Shown: positions 12,920-52,571 of the stretch, piece after piece | Position numbering within the stretch: the first letter of the stretch is position 1 | Layout: each line of letters starts with the position of its first letter | Origin: SAR202 cluster bacterium bin22 | GTDB lineage: Bacteria; Chloroflexota; Dehalococcoidia; Lucifugimonadales; UBA3495 | Length of the DNA stretch: 64,000 nt | Reading direction: 5' to 3' | NCBI GenBank assembly: GCA_002238505.1 | Contig: MPMM01000001.1 | Location: 682,001-746,000 of the forward strand | Position numbers and translations under genes: made by a program | Notes under the pieces: model-generated | Databases searched by the model: none | What the model was told of the DNA's origin: nothing | The model's input: only the letters and a program-made list of their open reading frames with translations

Positions 12920-14386
12920 ATGGCTATGCCCGTACGGACTGGTGAAGAATACCTGCAGGGTTTGAGGGAACGCCCCCCCGAGGTTTGGATCGGTGGCCAG
13001 AAGGTCAAGGACGTCACGGCCCATCCGGGGTTCGCCAACGGCGCCAGGTCCGTCGCCGCTCTCTACGATATGCAGAATGAGCCGGGCCTCCGGGATGAAA
13101 TGACTTTCCTTTCCCCCACATCAGGTGAAAGGGTCGGCCTGTCCTTCATCATGCCCGAAAATCTGGAAGACCTGGAACGTCGGCGTGGAATGTTCTACCG
13201 CTGGGCCAGCTGGCACGGCGGCATGATGGGACGTACGCCCGATTATATGAACGTTGCCTTCGTGGCGATGGCTTCGGCCGCTCCCTATTTCGATCAGGAC
13301 CGGGAAGGCTTTGGCGATAACGTTCGTAACTACTATGAACTCATCCGCGAGCAGGACCTGTGCCTCACTCACACCCTGGTTAATCCCCAGCGCAGTCGTT
13401 CGCCCCAGCGTTACATAACCGACTCCCTGGCCGAAGACGTGGCCCTCAAGGTCATCAAGGAAACCGACGCCGGCATCGTGGTTCGTGGGGCCCGGGTCCT
13501 GGCCACTCTGGGACCCCTTTCCGACGAAATCGCCGTTTATCCCTCCCGGTCCCACCATACGGCCGACAATGCCGAGCAGTACGCCGTGTCCTTCTCCATC
13601 CCCAGCAACACTCCCGGCCTGCGCTATATTTGCCGGGAGAGTTTCGACTACGGCCGCCCTGCCTTCGACCATCCTCTGGGATCTCGCTTCGAGGAAATGG
13701 ACGCGGTGGCCATTTTCGACAATGTGCTGGTTCCCTGGGAAAGGGTTTTCTTGATGGGCAGCGTGGAAAGCTGCAATAACATGACCAACCGGACCGGCTG
13801 GATTTTTCACAGCTTCCACCAGGTAGTTACCCGCCTCGTTGCCAAGACCGAGTTTCTGTTGGGCACGGCCTCGTTGATGGTGGAAACCCTGGGGTCAGGG
13901 GAACAACCCCACGTCCAGGAACGCATCGCCGAGATGGTGATGCATCTGGAAATCATCAAGGCCCTGCTGCGGACTGCCGAAGTTGACGCCGCCCCGGACG
14001 AATGGGGACTGCTGACGCCATCCAGATTTCCCTTGACCGTTGCCGAGAACATGTACGCCCGGAGCTTCTACCCGCGTATGGTGGAAATTATGCAGTTGCT
14101 GGGTTCCAGCAGCCTGATGGCCCTGCCCGGCGAGGCCGACTTCGACTCCGAAATCGGCCCGGATCTGCAACACTACCTGGCGACCGATACCGCATCCGCC
14201 ATGGACCGCACAAAGCTGTTCCACCTGGCCTGGGACATATCCTGCAGCGCCTTCGGTTCCCGCAGCCTGCACTACGAACGTTTCTTCGCCGGTGACCTGG
14301 TTCGCAACGCCCAGATAATGTATGCCACCTACGACCGCTCGCCTATGATGGACGCCGTTCGCCGATTCCTGGAACGGGAATCTTGA
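12920..14386 (+). CDS. HpaB-type 4-hydroxyphenylacetate 3-monooxygenase family protein
   Basis: This 488-residue protein matches the HpaB family over its full length. The N-terminus MPVRTGEEYLQGLRERP, the PDYMNV segment, the conserved HTLVNPQ and the FAD-loop region around FDNVLVPWERVFL are all visible. Members are either flavin-dependent phenol monooxygenases that take reduced FAD from a separate reductase, or 4-hydroxybutyryl-CoA dehydratases. The dehydratase cluster-binding cysteines are not evident, so a monooxygenase is favoured. No reductase gene is adjacent. GGAGG at 12912-12916 is only 3 nt from the first ATG but 9 nt from the ATG at 12926, so translation may start at 12926. The substrate is probably an aromatic compound. 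Confidence 0.85.
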   Translation: MAMPVRTGEEYLQGLRERPPEVWIGGQKVKDVTAHPGFANGARSVAALYDMQNEPGLRDEMTFLSPTSGERVGLSFIMPENLEDLERRRGMFYRWASWHGGMMGRTPDYMNVAFVAMASAAPYFDQDREGFGDNVRNYYELIREQDLCLTHTLVNPQRSRSPQRYITDSLAEDVALKVIKETDAGIVVRGARVLATLGPLSDEIAVYPSRSHHTADNAEQYAVSFSIPSNTPGLRYICRESFDYGRPAFDHPLGSRFEEMDAVAIFDNVLVPWERVFLMGSVESCNNMTNRTGWIFHSFHQVVTRLVAKTEFLLGTASLMVETLGSGEQPHVQERIAEMVMHLEIIKALLRTAEVDAAPDEWGLLTPSRFPLTVAENMYARSFYPRMVEIMQLLGSSSLMALPGEADFDSEIGPDLQHYLATDTASAMDRTKLFHLAWDISCSAFGSRSLHYERFFAGDLVRNAQIMYATYDRSPMMDAVRRFLERES

Positions 14387-18115: not shown

Positions 18116-18172
18116 TGCCGTCAACAGCAATCTCCAACGGGTATAGTCCCCAGCTGATGGAGGGTCAGACTA

Positions 18173-19093
18173 ATGAAGAAAGTGGTCAGCGAAATCAACG
18201 GAGCCATTTTCAGTTTGCCCTGGTTGGTAGCCAGGGATGAAGGGCTGTTCGAGGCGGAAGGCATTGAAATGGAGTTTGTCACCGCCGTCAGCAGCGGCCA
18301 GGTGACCCACACCGAAAACCCGGAAGAAGTTAACCCGGTATTGGGACACGTGGCTTTCGAGGACGCTAAAGTCTCCATTTACCGCGCTTGAGAAGAGGGT
18401 CAGGTCCGTCGGGCCTATGAAAGCAAGCAGGGCGCCAGGATTATTGCTCTTCGCTCTGCCGTAGCAAGCCAGGCCATCCTGGTGCGCGGTGACTCCCCCC
18501 ACTATTATCCCGGAACGCTGGGCAACCGGCCGGTGGCCGTCCAGTTCCACGCCGGCTCCCACTACGTGGCCTTGAGGCTGTTGTCCGGGTACCTGCCCGA
18601 AGAAAAACTCAAGCTGGTCCACTACGGTTCTCCCCAGTATCGATTTGAAGCCCTGATGAATGGTGAAGTGGATGCCGCGGCCCTGATGGAACCCTGGATT
18701 ACCCTCGCGGAAAAACTGGGCTGCCGTCCTGTCTGCGAAGGCCATTACCTGGGCGCCGAAAACGCCAGCGACAACATGGATGAGGAGACCTTCTCGGCCA
18801 TCAACCGCGCAGTGGTGAAGGCCGTGGACATCATCAACGCCGACAAGCGCAAGTACCTCCATTATCTCATCGACGAGCCCAGGTTTGCGTCAGTGGCGGT
18901 CAAATACGGAAGTATCACTCCCGAAGACTTCCACCTGTCCAGAATCCGTTACTCGTACAACACTCCCTACAATGACGAAATCATCGAGGACACCTATCAC
19001 TGGATGGTTAAGTGGGGTCTGCTGACCGATGCGGCCTGCGCCGCGGATCTGGTGGACAATCGCATTGCGGAGCCCGCGCCGGCAGACGATTAG
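18173..19093 (+). CDS. NMT1/THI5-like protein with in-frame TGA at codon 73 (candidate selenoprotein)
   Basis: The frame from ATG 18173 to TAG 19093 gives 306 residues, with one internal TGA at 18389-18391. Both halves are in the same frame and of normal composition. The product is a periplasmic-binding-protein-fold protein of the NMT1/THI5-like group: LPWLVARDEGLFEAEG, FHAGSHYVALRL, EPWITLAEKLGC and INADKRKYLHYLI are typical. The flanks read SIYRA-TGA-EEGQVRRAYESK. Related proteins, as I recall them, have YRACEWGQ here, so the TGA stands at a Cys. The hairpin AGGTCC-GTC-GGGCCT (18402-18416) lies ten bases after the TGA. GGAGGG precedes the ATG by eight bases. There is no signal peptide and no transporter gene nearby, so it may be a cytosolic binding protein or enzyme. 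Alternatives are a nonsense mutation or sequencing error. Confidence 0.7.
18402..18416 (+). promoter_or_regulatory. SECIS-like hairpin after the in-frame TGA
   Basis: AGGTCC and GGGCCT pair as RNA in six pairs (one G-U) around the loop GUC, which begins with G. The loop starts 17 nt after the TGA, within the range described for bacterial SECIS elements (loop about 16-37 nt away, G among the first two loop bases). The stem is short and the lower part is not well paired. Confidence 0.4.
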
Positions 19094-19119: not shown

Positions 19120-19154
19120 AGCCGGCCATGGAGACTCTGTGGCCGGCTTTGTTT
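19120..19154 (+). terminator. Terminator after the NMT1/THI5-like gene
   Basis: AGCCGGCCA and TGGCCGGCT form a nine-pair stem around eleven bases, followed by TTGTTTAAT. It lies 26 nt after the TAG that ends the read-through frame, not after the internal TGA, so it supports the long gene model. Confidence 0.75.
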
Positions 19155-38538: not shown

Positions 38539-39804
38539 CTAGCCTTCGGGCCAGCCGTCGGCGGACTCGCCGGCGCCCAGGGCGGCCGTGATGGATGCCT
38601 TGGCATCTTCAGTTACCCATTCGCCCCAGATTTCCGGGAAGCTGTTCAACCACCAAAGCGCAGTGGAATTTACGTCGGCATCAGGATTCTCGGCCTGCCA
38701 GCGAGCAGCCGTCTTGTAAACCTCGATGTTGTAGTCCCACTTGCGCAGCATTTCTACCACGTCCGGTGCTCGTCCAGCCAGATCCGGGTTAATGGCGATC
38801 AGTACTTCCGCATCTTCATAGGCGCAGGCTTTGTTGGTAAGCCAGCATTCATCACTGTATGCAGGCTCTTCCAACCTTACCAGATCAAGAATCAACGAAG
38901 GATCGTTGGTTCCCCACTGGTACCCCAGCCAGGGCTCTCCCTTTTCGTAGGCCCCGTATAGATCAGCATTCAGCGCTGCTCCGTCGCCGGGATTGACGAT
39001 TTCCACATGGTCATCCAATCCGTAGCCGGATACCTGTGCTGCGTTCACAACTTCGCAGGCCCAGCCAATGATGCAAGACACCAGTCGGGCCTTGTCTCCA
39101 GTCTCTGCTGACTTGAACAGGTCCTTGTACTGTGGGTCCCTCAAGTCATCAATATGGTCCAGTTCAGGATACTCTTCTTGAAGGTAGGCAGGGATTACGA
39201 AGGCAGACTGCCAGTCATTGCCCAGGCTCTTGCCAACCGAATAAACGGAACCATCCGCACGGGCCTCATTCCAGGCCTCGGTCTGGTTAGGCAGCCAGAT
39301 TTCCATTGTTACGTGCGTGTCGCCACGGAGCAGGCCCTGGAACAGAGGAAGGGTGGAACCGAAAGTTGCGCTGGTCGGATAGCCATAACCCTTTTCAACA
39401 ATGTATTGGGCAACTCGGTTTTGAAGCTGGGCGCTGGACCAGTTCAGGTCGCTGAAGGCAATTTCTTCTTTCGGGCCCTCAGGCGCCATGACCTCTACGA
39501 TCTTTTCGACCTCGACAACTCTCTCGACTTCGACCTCGACCGGAACTTCCCTCTCGACGACCCTCTCTACTTCTACCTGGACCTCGACGGGAACTTCCCT
39601 CTCGACGACCGTTTCGACTTCGACCGGGACTTCCCTCTCGACTTCGACTACTCTCTCGACTTCGACCTCGACGGGAACTTCCTTCTCTACCTCAACGACC
39701 CTCTCTACCTCAACGATTTGGGGCTCGGCCTGGCAAGCAACCAAAGCGAATATGGCAAACATGGCCGCCATAAGGATCAATAACCTGTACTTGGTAAGCA
39801 CCAT
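38539..39804 (-). CDS. opuAC: Glycine betaine/proline ABC transporter substrate-binding lipoprotein
   Basis: The 421-residue precursor has a signal peptide with lipobox LVAC (Cys24). Residues 31-105 are an unusual repeat of Val and Glu (units such as VEVERVVEVE and KEVPVEVE). The mature OpuAC-type domain follows from about 112: AFSDLNWSSAQLQNRVAQ, GDTHVTMEIWLPNQ, and the aromatic-rich GEPWLGYQW and TALWWLNSF segments that could form the cation cage. The Val/Glu stretch probably forms an extended spacer between the lipid anchor and the binding domain. It is the third gene of the transporter operon, 119 nt behind the permease gene. Confidence 0.9.
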   Translation of the reverse strand: MVLTKYRLLILMAAMFAIFALVACQAEPQIVEVERVVEVEKEVPVEVEVERVVEVEREVPVEVETVVEREVPVEVQVEVERVVEREVPVEVEVERVVEVEKIVEVMAPEGPKEEIAFSDLNWSSAQLQNRVAQYIVEKGYGYPTSATFGSTLPLFQGLLRGDTHVTMEIWLPNQTEAWNEARADGSVYSVGKSLGNDWQSAFVIPAYLQEEYPELDHIDDLRDPQYKDLFKSAETGDKARLVSCIIGWACEVVNAAQVSGYGLDDHVEIVNPGDGAALNADLYGAYEKGEPWLGYQWGTNDPSLILDLVRLEEPAYSDECWLTNKACAYEDAEVLIAINPDLAGRAPDVVEMLRKWDYNIEVYKTAARWQAENPDADVNSTALWWLNSFPEIWGEWVTEDAKASITAALGAGESADGWPEG

Positions 39805-39923
39805 CTAACCTCCTCAATTTTGGTCCAATATTGCGCGCATTCACCCGTAAGAAAATGCCCGCCAATCCTATCAGTGACTCCTTTCAGTGTCAAACTTTAG
39901 TAAAGAAACCGTGAAGCCCGACA

Positions 39924-41036
39924 TTAGCCAATCCCCATAGACTCCTGTCTGCTCCGCGCTGCGGATTGGGTGAGACGGTCGATTACAATCGCAAGGAAAA
40001 CGATGGCCAGTCCTGCTATGGCTCCATTTCCGGACTCGTTCTTTTGGAGTGCTCTGAGTACATTGTCTCCCAATCCACCTGCAGCCACCATGCTGGCAAT
40101 CGTCACCATAGCCAAAGCCATCATAGTAGTCTGGTTAATGCCTGCCATAATCGTAGGGAGGGCCATCGGAATCTGTACCTTGGTTAGCACCTGCATAGGA
40201 GAAGCCCCAAAGGAACGAGCAGCTTCCACCGTCTCAGGGGAAACCTGGCGTATCCCCAGGTTGGTCAATCGGATTACTGGGGGAACCGCGTAAATGATGG
40301 TCGCAAAGATACCAGCGGGCTTCCCCAATCCAAAAAACAATATGCCAGGCAGCAGGTAAACAAAGCTGGGCATGGTTTGCATTCCGTCCAGAATGGGACG
40401 AAGCAAATTGTCCGCAATGCGGCTTCGCGCTCCCAGGACACCCAGTGGCAAACCAATGGCCATGGCCACCGCCACCGCAACAACCATCAGGGCAATGGTG
40501 TCGATGGTGTTCTCCCACAGATCCATGAATCCGATGAAGAGCATCGCCAGCGCCGTAAAGATGGCCAGGCTCCAGCGGCCCATCGTGAATGCCAGTAAAG
40601 TCAACGCCAAAACCAGAACCGGCCAGGGTACCCACTTCAACACATCCTCAATATAAATGAGAGCGTAGGTGATTGCCGTTGCTATTCCATCGAACAGCCA
40701 TGCCCCAGATACTGTCATCCACTTGACGATGGAATCTATGGTGGAACCCGTTTGCTGCCTCAGGGTCCTTTCCAGAACGATGGTTGCGCCGCTGGCGGTT
40801 GGCACTTCGGACGTCGATACCGTCGTCGGATAAGTCATACCTGGACCCCACATGACCAGGCAAACCACGAGGGTCACACCGATTGCCCCCAGTGCCGCCA
40901 ACAACCGGAAGTAACCAGGTAGGCTGTTGACACTGGCTAGAAACGAACCTGAGCCCGCTCCCCGGGCGCCAGCCTGAGTAAGAGATTGGTTATCAGGGTC
41001 TGCCGCTTCCGAGTTGTTCCTGGTTAATAAGGCCAT
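39924..41036 (-). CDS. opuAB: Glycine betaine/proline ABC transporter permease
   Basis: The 370-residue membrane protein has one N-terminal helix (about 38-60), a periplasmic loop and a typical BPD-transport permease domain (about 115-360) with at least five helices. The EAA loop is visible as EAARSFGASPMQVLTKVQIPMALPTIMAG, the ProW signature that contacts the ATPase. GMQTMPSFVYLLPGILFFG is a further family stretch. It lies between the ATPase (101 nt upstream) and the binding protein in a ProV-ProW-ProX order. It should import betaine or a related osmolyte with the two neighbours. Confidence 0.9.
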   Translation of the reverse strand: MALLTRNNSEAADPDNQSLTQAGARGAGSGSFLASVNSLPGYFRLLAALGAIGVTLVVCLVMWGPGMTYPTTVSTSEVPTASGATIVLERTLRQQTGSTIDSIVKWMTVSGAWLFDGIATAITYALIYIEDVLKWVPWPVLVLALTLLAFTMGRWSLAIFTALAMLFIGFMDLWENTIDTIALMVVAVAVAMAIGLPLGVLGARSRIADNLLRPILDGMQTMPSFVYLLPGILFFGLGKPAGIFATIIYAVPPVIRLTNLGIRQVSPETVEAARSFGASPMQVLTKVQIPMALPTIMAGINQTTMMALAMVTIASMVAAGGLGDNVLRALQKNESGNGAIAGLAIVFLAIVIDRLTQSAARSRQESMGIG

Positions 41037-41137
41037 GGTTTTCTCCTGCCGAATCGGCCATGTCTTACAGCTTAGTTGCGGGCCGGCCGTGCAAAGGGTA
41101 AATACTAAAGGGCAGGTTTACTGAGATTGCACCTCCC

Positions 41138-42484
41138 CTAGTTTTCGTTAGACTCCTTGTCTGCTGCTATCGCAGCGTTCTCTGCCGCATTGGCGGCATA
41201 ATCGTTATCCACGGTGGTGGTCTCTGCCAGTGCTTCCGCCAGCGCACCCCGGTGCACTTCACCTACCAGCGCATTCTGCGAATCTACCACTGGAATAGGG
41301 TGGTCGCTGGACATGGCAATTGGTATCAATGAATCAAAGCTTGTGGAAGGCGAAACCGGAAGATATTCCCTTTCTACGTAGTCCCAGGCTTCGTCAAATC
41401 TCTTTACACCCGCCCGCAGAGCCCTTTCAGCGCTGGCAATTGTCAGCAGGCCTACATATTTTCCGCGACTGTCCACCACCCAACCTACGTCTCCGTCACT
41501 TTCCCCTATGGTGTGAAGGGCCGCCCGTGGACCCTGCCGGCCCATGACCGTGGCCTTGGGGGAGACCATCACCTTGGATGCTGTCAAAACGCTTTCCAGC
41601 CGGACGTCCTGGGTGAAGTCACCTACGTACTCGTCCTCCGGGCGCAGGACTATGTCCTCAGGGGAACCTATTTGCGCTACCGCGCCATCATGCATGATGG
41701 CGATGTGGTCTCCCAGCTTCAGCGCTTCATTTAGATCGTGTGTAATGAATACGATGGTCTTCTGAAGTTCGGTTTGCAGGTTTAGCAGTTCGTCCTGCAT
41801 TTGGCGGCGAATCAAGGGATCCAGGCCACTGAAGGGCTCGTCCATCAACAGGATATCCGTGTTCACCACCAGGGCCCGGGCCAGGCCCACCCGCTGCTGC
41901 ATACCGCCGGACAATTGCCGGGGGTAGGAATTTTCCCATCCGGCCAAGCCGACAATATCCAGGGTCTTTCGGGTTCGTTCGTACCGCTCTTCCTTGGTAA
42001 CCCCTTGAACCTCGAGCCCCCAGGATGCGTTGTCCAGTACGTTGCGATGGGGCATCAGCCCATAGTGTTGGAACACCATCGCAATCTTCGCGCGGCGGAA
42101 ATCAACAAGTTCCTTGTCGGTCATCTTGGTGATATCTTCACCGGCGATATTGATCTCGCCCGCGGTGGGGTCGATTAGCCGGAGCAAGCAACGAACGAGG
42201 GTGGACTTGCCGCTGCCCGACAGGCCCATTATTACGAAAGTCTCTCCCTTGCTTACCTCAAAATTCACGTCCCGAAGGCCGACCACGTTACCAAATTCGG
42301 ACTGGAAAAATGTCTTGTCTTTATCGGCGAATTCCGGTTGCAGCACGCGTTCCGGATTCCTGCCAAACACTTTCCAGAGGGACCTGACAAAAATATACGG
42401 GGCGGAACTACTGCTGCCATTTCCGCCCGCCACCTGCCTGTCCAGGTCTGAATTAACCAGTGAACCGTCTTCTTGTTGCTGCAT
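41138..42484 (-). CDS. opuAA: Glycine betaine/proline ABC transporter ATP-binding protein
   Basis: The 448 residues contain an ABC ATPase domain with Walker A GLSGSGKSTL (near 90), Q-loop FQHYGLMPH, signature LSGGMQQRVGLARAL, Walker B ILLMDEP and the His switch FITHDL. Two CBS-like segments follow (about 285-420). CBS domains of OpuA/ProV sense ionic strength or nucleotides. The last 25 residues are acidic and Ala/Asn-rich. It is the first gene of the leftward transporter operon; upstream is a long regulatory region. The product couples ATP hydrolysis to osmolyte uptake at the cytoplasmic membrane. Confidence 0.92.
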   Translation of the reverse strand: MQQQEDGSLVNSDLDRQVAGGNGSSSSAPYIFVRSLWKVFGRNPERVLQPEFADKDKTFFQSEFGNVVGLRDVNFEVSKGETFVIMGLSGSGKSTLVRCLLRLIDPTAGEINIAGEDITKMTDKELVDFRRAKIAMVFQHYGLMPHRNVLDNASWGLEVQGVTKEERYERTRKTLDIVGLAGWENSYPRQLSGGMQQRVGLARALVVNTDILLMDEPFSGLDPLIRRQMQDELLNLQTELQKTIVFITHDLNEALKLGDHIAIMHDGAVAQIGSPEDIVLRPEDEYVGDFTQDVRLESVLTASKVMVSPKATVMGRQGPRAALHTIGESDGDVGWVVDSRGKYVGLLTIASAERALRAGVKRFDEAWDYVEREYLPVSPSTSFDSLIPIAMSSDHPIPVVDSQNALVGEVHRGALAEALAETTTVDNDYAANAAENAAIAADKESNEN

Positions 42485-50577: not shown

Positions 50578-50599
50578 TTCATCCGGCGATCTATACCGC

Positions 50600-50855
50600 T
50601 ATGAAAGGGAGTACTAAGAGTACCCTGTCCTCAGAGAGCCGGCGGCAGGTGAAAGTCCGGCGACAGAAGGGCTCCCAACTCGCCCTGGAGCGACCCGCCT
50701 GAACCACAGTAAGGCGCGGCGGCTAACCCCGTTAAAGGTTATTAAAAGCTGTTCCGGTTACTTATCCTGGCTGAAGGTCAGGCAACCGGAAAAGAAGGGT
50801 GGTACCGCGGGTTTTGCGATTGCAGCCCGTCCCTTCGGGGACGGGCCTTTTTTTA
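50600..50855 (+). ncRNA. T-box leader, probably leucine-specific, of ilvBNC-leuA
   Basis: The T-box sequence AAGGGTGGTACCGCGG is at 50795-50810; its TGGT can pair with the ACCA end of an uncharged tRNA. Stem I begins with AGAGAGCCGG (50633 on). The probable specifier is CTC (Leu) at 50679-50681 in the stretch CCAACTCGCCCTGGAGC; this codon assignment is less certain than the T-box itself. The competing terminator is GCCCGTCCC-TTCG-GGGACGGGC (50825-50846) with a run of seven T. Uncharged tRNA should stabilise the antiterminator and allow transcription of ilvB and the genes behind it. Confidence 0.9.
50825..50854 (+). terminator. T-box-controlled attenuator terminator
   Basis: A nine-pair stem (50825-50833 with 50838-50846) with a TTCG loop, followed by CTTTTTTT. 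It overlaps the 3' side of the T-box antiterminator and ends 22 nt before the ilvB start. Confidence 0.88.
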
Positions 50856-50876
50856 TTTATGGCGCTTGAGGCAAGA

Positions 50877-52571
50877 ATGGAATATACCGGCGCGGAAATC
50901 GTTTGTGAAAGCCTCCTCCAGGAGGGGGTGGAAGTTATCTTCGGGCTGCCCGGCGGGGCGGTCCTTCCCTTTTATGGGGCCCTGAGCGGCTATCCTCAGC
51001 TTCGCCACGTTTTGGTCCGGCACGAGCAGGCCGCGGCCATGGCCGCCGATGGCTACGCTCGCGTCACGGGCAAGGTGGGGGTCTGCACCGCCACTTCCGG
51101 CCCCGGCGCCACCAATCTGGTTACCGGAATCGCCGGCGCGATGATGGACTCCATACCCATGGTGGCCATCACCGGCCAGGTGCCCAAGCCCGCCATCGGG
51201 CGTGACGCCTTCCAAGAGACTGACATTACCGGCATCACTCTCCCCATAACCAAGCACAATATGCTGGTTATGGAGGTTGATGATATCGCTCCTGCCATCA
51301 AAGAAGCCTTTTACATCGCCCAGTCCGGCCGTCCCGGTCCGGTTCTCCTGGACATTCCCAAGGACGTGCTGGCCGGAGAGAAGCGCCCCTTCGTCTGGCC
51401 CGAGACCCTCAACCTCCAGGGCTATTATCCCCCTGGCGAGGCCGACGAAATCCAGTTGAACCAGGCTGTCGAGTTGATTAACCAGGCCGAGCGGCCGATC
51501 ATCCTGGCCGGTCACGGCGTCCTGATTTCTCACGCTTACTCGGAACTTCGCGAATTGGCAGAAAAGGCGCAGATACCGGTAATTACCACTCTGCTGGGCA
51601 TAAGTTCCTTCCCTACCGATCACTTCCTGCACACCGGAATGCCCGGCATGCATGGAATGGCCTACGCCAGCCTCGCCATCGACAAGGCAGACCTGCTGGT
51701 TTCCCTGGGCATGCGCTTTGATGACCGGGTTACCGGCCGGATCTCCGACTTCGCCCCCAATGCCCGCGTGGTGCACGTGGATGTGGACCCGTCTGAATTT
51801 CACAAGAACGTGAAAGCCACGGTGCCGGTGCTTGGCGACATCAGGAAGGTACTGAACCAGATGTTGCCCCTGGTAAACCGAAGGACTCATGTCGATTGGC
51901 TCCAATATATCGACACCCTGCGGGCGGAGCATCCATCTCTCTATATCCGTCAAACTGACGAACTGCTGCCCCAGTTCGTTATGAAGCAGCTTTCCGACGT
52001 AACCGAGGGCAACGCGATAATCGTTACCGGGGTAGGTCAGCACCAGATGTGGGCAGCCCAGCACTATGCCTACAAGAACCCCAACTCCCTGATTACCTCC
52101 GGTGGTCTTGGGGCCATGGGATTCGAGGTCCCCGCGGCACTGGGCGCCAAGGTTGGAAGTCCCGATAAGGTTGTCTGGTCCATTGCCGGTGACGGCGGGT
52201 TCCAGATGACTATGTGCGACCTGGCTACGGCGGTAGAAAACAATATCGACGTAAAGTTCGCTATTCTGAACAACGGTGTCCTGGGTATGGTTCACCAGTG
52301 GCAGGAGTTCTTCTACGACAAGGACTTCTTCGCCACCGTGTATTCCGGGAACCCGGACTTCGTGAAGCTGGCTGAAGCCTACGGCATCCCCGGTATCCGC
52401 GTTACTGACAAAACCCAGGTGGAAGCCGCCATCAGGCAGGCTATGGACACGCCGGGCCCAGTGGTCGTGGACTTTATCGTCAAGCGGGACGAGCAGGTCT
52501 ATCCCATGATTCCCGCCGGTGAATCGGTCAACGAAATGATGGAAGAACCTGTCCCTGAGAGGATTTTCTAA
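50877..52571 (+). CDS. ilvB: Acetolactate synthase, large subunit
   Basis: The 564-residue ThDP enzyme starts at the ATG at 50877 with GAGG five bases upstream; an ATG at 50859 lies closer to the attenuator and has no ribosome site. It has FGLPGGAVLPFYGAL, the catalytic Glu in RHEQAAAMAADGYAR, the FAD/central domain (GHGVLISHAY, MPGMHGMAYA) and the PP domain GDGGFQMTMCDLATAVENN with NNGVLGMVHQWQEFFY. It makes 2-acetolactate or 2-aceto-2-hydroxybutyrate, the first common step to valine, leucine and isoleucine. It is followed directly by ilvN and controlled by the T-box leader. Confidence 0.95.
   Translation: MEYTGAEIVCESLLQEGVEVIFGLPGGAVLPFYGALSGYPQLRHVLVRHEQAAAMAADGYARVTGKVGVCTATSGPGATNLVTGIAGAMMDSIPMVAITGQVPKPAIGRDAFQETDITGITLPITKHNMLVMEVDDIAPAIKEAFYIAQSGRPGPVLLDIPKDVLAGEKRPFVWPETLNLQGYYPPGEADEIQLNQAVELINQAERPIILAGHGVLISHAYSELRELAEKAQIPVITTLLGISSFPTDHFLHTGMPGMHGMAYASLAIDKADLLVSLGMRFDDRVTGRISDFAPNARVVHVDVDPSEFHKNVKATVPVLGDIRKVLNQMLPLVNRRTHVDWLQYIDTLRAEHPSLYIRQTDELLPQFVMKQLSDVTEGNAIIVTGVGQHQMWAAQHYAYKNPNSLITSGGLGAMGFEVPAALGAKVGSPDKVVWSIAGDGGFQMTMCDLATAVENNIDVKFAILNNGVLGMVHQWQEFFYDKDFFATVYSGNPDFVKLAEAYGIPGIRVTDKTQVEAAIRQAMDTPGPVVVDFIVKRDEQVYPMIPAGESVNEMMEEPVPERIF

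Follow-up and report, generated by a model that had tools for sequence, protein, structure and literature searches.

Positions 18173-19093 of the forward strand of the analysed window (64,000 nt of SAR202 cluster bacterium bin22, MPMM01000001.1 positions 682,001-746,000; coordinates are window-based) encoded a cytosolic NMT1/THI5-like protein with a type II periplasmic-binding-protein fold, in which the in-frame TGA at codon 73 (18389-18391, +) is almost certainly read as selenocysteine (Sec), judging from sequence comparison. The initial annotation of this DNA had proposed a possible new selenoprotein with a TGA at a Cys position, and that proposal was supported by the homologues of the protein, by constraint on a hairpin downstream of the TGA and by the selenocysteine genes of the genome; none of the three conditions it had named as refuting (no Cys in homologues, no selenocysteine genes, a sequencing error) applied. 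Taken as a whole, our explanation is a selenoprotein whose family is missing from the current catalogue and which likely acts as a stand-alone enzyme with a selenolate in its ligand cleft, and we regard this as probable.

The frame 18173-19093 contained the single TGA and then stayed open to a TAG, giving 306 residues including Sec73, in agreement with the otherwise intact 307-codon frame described initially. A second in-frame TGA lay five codons upstream of the ATG at 18173. The ribosome-binding site assigned before the start was recognisable in the sequence (GGAGGG, 18159-18164, +, 8 nt before the ATG), but the promoter also placed there was not recovered, as a sigma-70 scan found none on the forward strand. 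The terminator claimed at 19120-19154 (+), after the distal stop, was present as a weak intrinsic-terminator-like hairpin (19120-19148) with a T-rich tail, though shuffled sequences yielded about as many such structures (expected 1.4). The window held 100 TGA-joined frames of a similar kind, among which 18173-19093 ranked 25th by length, so the read-through frame by itself is no evidence. What lifts this frame far above chance is conservation: 37 distinct genes have their TGA in this column, and other homologues have Cys there.

Among 39 related genomes, 19 matches (66-100% identity) carried exactly one TGA, at the same codon in all, and in 250 genomes of the order 35 TGA genes were found, every one belonging to a single family. 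Once matches from 84,980 scanned species genomes had been added, the Sec genes numbered 37 distinct sequences of 47-100% identity with the TGA at the same column. The genome of bin22 itself carried a second Sec paralogue (L029, C47:16110-17030), 69% identical, in which codon 73 was likewise TGA and the hairpin recurred. Hosts of the Sec genes were Chloroflexota (Dehalococcoidia, SAR202 and other MAGs), plus one record labelled Gemmatimonadetes; the gene in that record (L089) grouped within the Chloroflexota clade, which would fit a mislabelled or misbinned MAG, or a transfer. No relatives were found in viral contigs. The TGA aligned with an invariant Cys, encoded by TGC or TGT, in homologues of 43-51% identity from Actinobacteria, Cyanobacteria, Proteobacteria and other Chloroflexota, with Streptomyces, Pseudonocardia, Nocardiopsis, Nostoc, Rhizobiales and Bordetella among the hosts. 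Their motif was YRACEWGQ, the pattern given in the initial annotation, and column 73 held Cys or Sec, with no third residue among the sampled homologues. A single branch of the tree (support 92/70) separated all the Sec genes from the Cys forms, with the most distant rows among the latter, a topology that would fit replacement of Cys by Sec. Three very distant members (L165, L201 and L206; 33-36% identity), which came from other families and in one case from a genome outside the class of the window, also had a TGA at this column, so Sec may have been acquired, or retained, on more than one occasion in this protein family. After the TGA these three read ECG instead of EEG, which creates a UxC motif (UECG type). 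Each was able to form a hairpin with the loop CGUGUU, although the minimum-energy structures computed for the sequence around it were different ones. Values of dN/dS were alike on both sides of the TGA (0.139 upstream, 0.129 downstream), which argues that the downstream part is translated in frame.

The sequence after the TGA contained a putative SECIS upper stem-loop, AGGUCC-GUC-GGGCCU (18402-18416, +), lying within codons 77-81 plus one base, at SECIS distance and with G first in the loop, as had been noted from the sequence. With a 3-nt loop (GUC) located 16 nt after the TGA, a 6-bp stem and an MFE of -7.6 kcal/mol, the hairpin fell within published bSECIS limits (loop of 3-9 nt with an early G, stem of 4-16 bp, loop 16-37 nt after the UGA, MFE of at most -7.5 kcal/mol), at their edge. 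Its energy was ordinary compared to shuffles (z ~ 0), and hairpin energy was therefore rejected as evidence. Synonymous constraint on the element was strong: across the 37 Sec genes, codons 77-81 (CAG GTC CGT CGG GCC) varied less at synonymous positions than any other stretch of the protein (mean codon entropy 0.07 bits vs 1.02), and synonymous differences per site amounted to 0.023 in the stem codons but 0.63-0.66 elsewhere, a low value that none of 300 random sets reached. In a divergent SAR202 member (L132, 47% identity), GTC had become GTT and CGG had become CGA together, converting a C-G pair to U-A with the protein unchanged. For a longer stretch of L132 the computation slightly favoured another fold, so we take this single covariation as supporting the stem without proving it. 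Codons further out were constrained as well. The Ala72 codon (18386-18388, +) was GCT in 36/36 Ala codons before the TGA, whereas GCT made up 6.6% of other Ala codons in Sec-clade genes, and the Ser84 codon (AGC, 18422-18424, +) was AGY in 36/36 Ser codons, compared to 44% of Ser codons elsewhere in these genes. The two may represent the 5' and 3' sides of a lower SECIS stem flanking the UGA, or a context effect. RNAalifold also proposed an alternative hairpin in which the third base of Gly76 is paired; as all four letters occurred at that position, this hairpin was not adopted.

The selenocysteine genes that such a reading calls for were all found in the same genome: selA, selB, selD and one tRNA-Sec of standard long form with a UCA anticodon. 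The tRNA-Sec family search also matched ordinary tRNAs, and of its three best matches, which were checked with ARAGORN, one was a tRNA-Sec. The selD gene itself carried one TGA, as it did in 37/39 of the genomes searched.

An AlphaFold2 model of the protein (pLDDT 93.5, pTM 0.90) had a complete type II periplasmic-binding-protein fold, with structural matches to SsuA (Z 24), to CmpA/NrtA and the cytosolic regulatory domain of CmpC (Z 22), to TauA (Z 21.5), to Thi5 (Z ~21) and to DszB (Z ~16). In comparison with the Pfam models PF09084 and PF13379 of the NMT1/THI5-like superfamily, the window protein stayed below the curated cut-off (18 vs 24.7 bits), its Cys homologue in L106 was above the cut-off for both, and the modelled fold was in keeping with this superfamily. 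In the model, residue 73 was the last of strand 69-73, directly followed by helix 74-83. The ends of such strands in this fold face the cleft between the lobes, and Sec73 is expected to face the ligand cleft or pocket. Residue 73, Glu74 and Gly76 were invariant in Sec and Cys members, as were His126 and His130, whose loop aligned with a similar HY-containing loop of TauA. An internal Sec-Cys redox pair was considered and rejected, as the alignment of Sec and Cys members contained no second conserved Cys, although UxC occurred in the three distant Sec members.

The protein had been described as lacking both a signal peptide and transporter neighbours, and both points stood. The in-frame stop five codons upstream of the ATG, together with a first strand that begins at residue 2, makes a signal peptide impossible. 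A cognate permease was encoded beside none of 33 Sec loci, and no SsuC/TauC-type permease was seen in the genome of bin22, where betaine-type and other weak matches were the only ones; genomes of the same genus gave weaker permease matches only, and the match within the window was a ProW-type betaine permease. The window contained a betaine/choline-type ABC operon (38539-42484, -; ProX, ProW, ProV-like) with a permease weakly similar to the SaoP model. As the Sec genes were without permease neighbours and permease matches in the genus were weak, we favoured for the Sec form a role that is independent of a transporter and probably enzymatic, at about even probability, over a role as sensor or carrier, which is possible but less probable. 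No neighbouring genes were conserved across the Sec clade. Neighbours were rejected as a clue to the substrate, since the TPP enzyme, luciferase-like oxidoreductase and GMC oxidoreductase genes that surround it recurred in the nearest relatives only. Luciferase-like genes lay upstream in 9 other Sec loci, but as large expansions of luciferase-like enzymes are known from SAR202 genomes (PMC6946804, PMC5395668), we drew no link between them and the Sec gene. Elsewhere in the window were an HpaB-type 4-hydroxyphenylacetate 3-monooxygenase above the NCBIfam cut-off (12920-14386, +) and a T-box leader (50592-50837, +; Rfam RF00230, 107 bits) upstream of an ORF at 50799-52571.

The alternative that survived best accepts the selenocysteine but sees the product as a binding or sensor protein, a cytosolic uptake partner like the CmpC/NrtC regulatory domain, in which Sec or Cys would serve as a soft-metal or metabolite ligand. 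We hold this to be rather unlikely, although several observations speak for it. The cytosolic regulatory domain of CmpC was among the best structural matches, and metal-ligand roles have been suggested for Sec in SaoB and SaoC (PMC13188914). Cys homologues adjoined an ABC ATPase in 34/47 loci and a TauC-like permease in 28/47, and the operons examined also encoded a separate secreted NMT1-type binding protein, which indicates that the Cys homologue itself is probably not the transport protein even there. Sec loci had no such neighbours (0/33), however, and the best permease candidates of the genome itself were betaine-type or weak. Moreover, Sec is generally used at catalytic redox or nucleophilic sites, which fits less well with a ligand role. 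In 12 actinobacterial loci, a second cytosolic protein with the motif CEWGG was encoded beside the Cys homologue (L106:2322-3188 and 11 others); it lacked a signal peptide and shared an operon with the binding protein, the permease, the ATPase and the CEWGQ protein, and the CEWGG and CEWGQ proteins may work as a pair.

Other readings fared far worse. That the product is a divergent relative of SaoX, SaoB or BtuF, serving an ABC importer as a selenoprotein, is very improbable: these three are all substrate-binding-protein-like selenoproteins, as is the window protein, but an NCBIfam scan at E up to 1 returned SsuA-type models only, with the SaoX and SaoB models NF040735 and NF040727 unmatched, and the signal peptide and adjoining transporter genes were absent. 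Still less credible is decoding of the UGA outside the Sec system, by suppression or by insertion of Cys or Trp. A Cys-inserting UGA tRNA could also account for Cys in the homologues, but the complete Sec machinery of the genome, with its standard long tRNA-Sec (UCA), makes suppression or a changed code unlikely, and the hairpin was conserved with one TGA per gene, always in the same column. Least of all do we credit a real stop, with the gene being a pseudogene, the TGA a sequencing error, or the two halves separate short products. Although a shorter downstream frame starting at GTG 18482 was present and TGA-joined frames are frequent by chance, retention of the TGA across dozens of independent assemblies ruled out sequencing error and purifying selection was equal on both sides.

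We therefore return to the preferred reading, a selenoenzyme. On the ribosome, UGA codon 73 would be decoded as Sec under the direction of the hairpin starting 10 nt downstream and of the SelA, SelB, SelD and tRNA-Sec of the genome itself. The product would be a cytosolic, two-lobed protein with the fold of SsuA/TauA/THI5-type proteins, in which Sec73, in place of the invariant Cys, is modelled to end a central strand and cap the next helix, in a region that lines the ligand cleft in this fold. We postulate that a small metabolite, probably an anion, is enclosed by the protein and may then be attacked by the selenolate as a nucleophile. Whether the protein is a stand-alone enzyme with a cleft selenolate, and not part of a transporter, appears to us evenly poised on the present comparisons. 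More tentatively, it may represent a selenoenzyme built on the periplasmic-binding-protein (PBP) fold, derived from a Cys form in Dehalococcoidia, with Sec also in a few distant UECG lineages and a chemistry undescribed for the fold.

The family would add one more to the approximately 119 catalogued prokaryotic selenoprotein families, in a PBP-type fold whose previously known Sec proteins have all been described as components for transport or cobalamin binding. It would also give the abundant but little-studied marine and sponge-associated Chloroflexota, including SAR202, a selenium-dependent protein besides SelD. As Sec usually marks a reactive residue, its presence points to unrecognised chemistry in the widespread Cys family of Streptomyces, Nostoc and rhizobia, which databases name merely 'ABC transporter substrate-binding protein'. 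Standard gene calling would cut the Sec members at residue 72 or start inside them, which makes the family easy to overlook in protein databases.

Two proteins with the PBP fold, THI5/NMT1 (HMP-P synthase) and DszB (a desulfinase), are enzymes without a transport role; both share only ~12-18% identity with the Sec protein and carry their reactive residue in a different loop. The CCCFC iron motif of THI5, the enzyme to which the initial annotation had tentatively likened the product, was absent from the 18173-19093 protein, as was a Cys in the first strand-helix loop corresponding to Cys27 of DszB; residues 1-72 contained no Cys, and Sec lies in a later loop. SsuA and TauA were the best structural matches, but they are secreted and serve transporters, whereas the Sec protein is cytosolic and without a cognate permease. 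A review of May 2026 lists 119 prokaryotic selenoprotein families and subfamilies, with no NMT1/THI5 entry among them, and mentions unvalidated selenoprotein candidates from groundwater MAGs (PMC13188914), among which there may be an earlier, unnamed sighting of this Sec family. The nearest catalogue entries are SaoX, SaoB and BtuF, listed as substrate-binding-type selenoproteins (PMC13188914). The initial claim that no selenoprotein of this fold is known was thus too broad given these three entries, but it held in that none is described as NMT1/THI5-like and the SaoX and SaoB models were unmatched. They resemble the 18173-19093 protein in being substrate-binding-protein-like selenoproteins; it differs from them in lacking their listed Sec motifs (UxP, CUxxT and CxxU) and in not being secreted; for BtuF the comparison covered its listed cd01144 domain. 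The closest known relatives are the Cys-containing cytosolic YRACEWGQ proteins of Streptomyces, Nostoc and rhizobia, which belong to the same family over their full length, at 43-50% identity, and share the fold, the missing signal peptide and the motif around residue 73, but have Cys for Sec and carry Trp75, a position occupied by Glu in the main Sec clade, and are usually encoded beside ABC importer genes.
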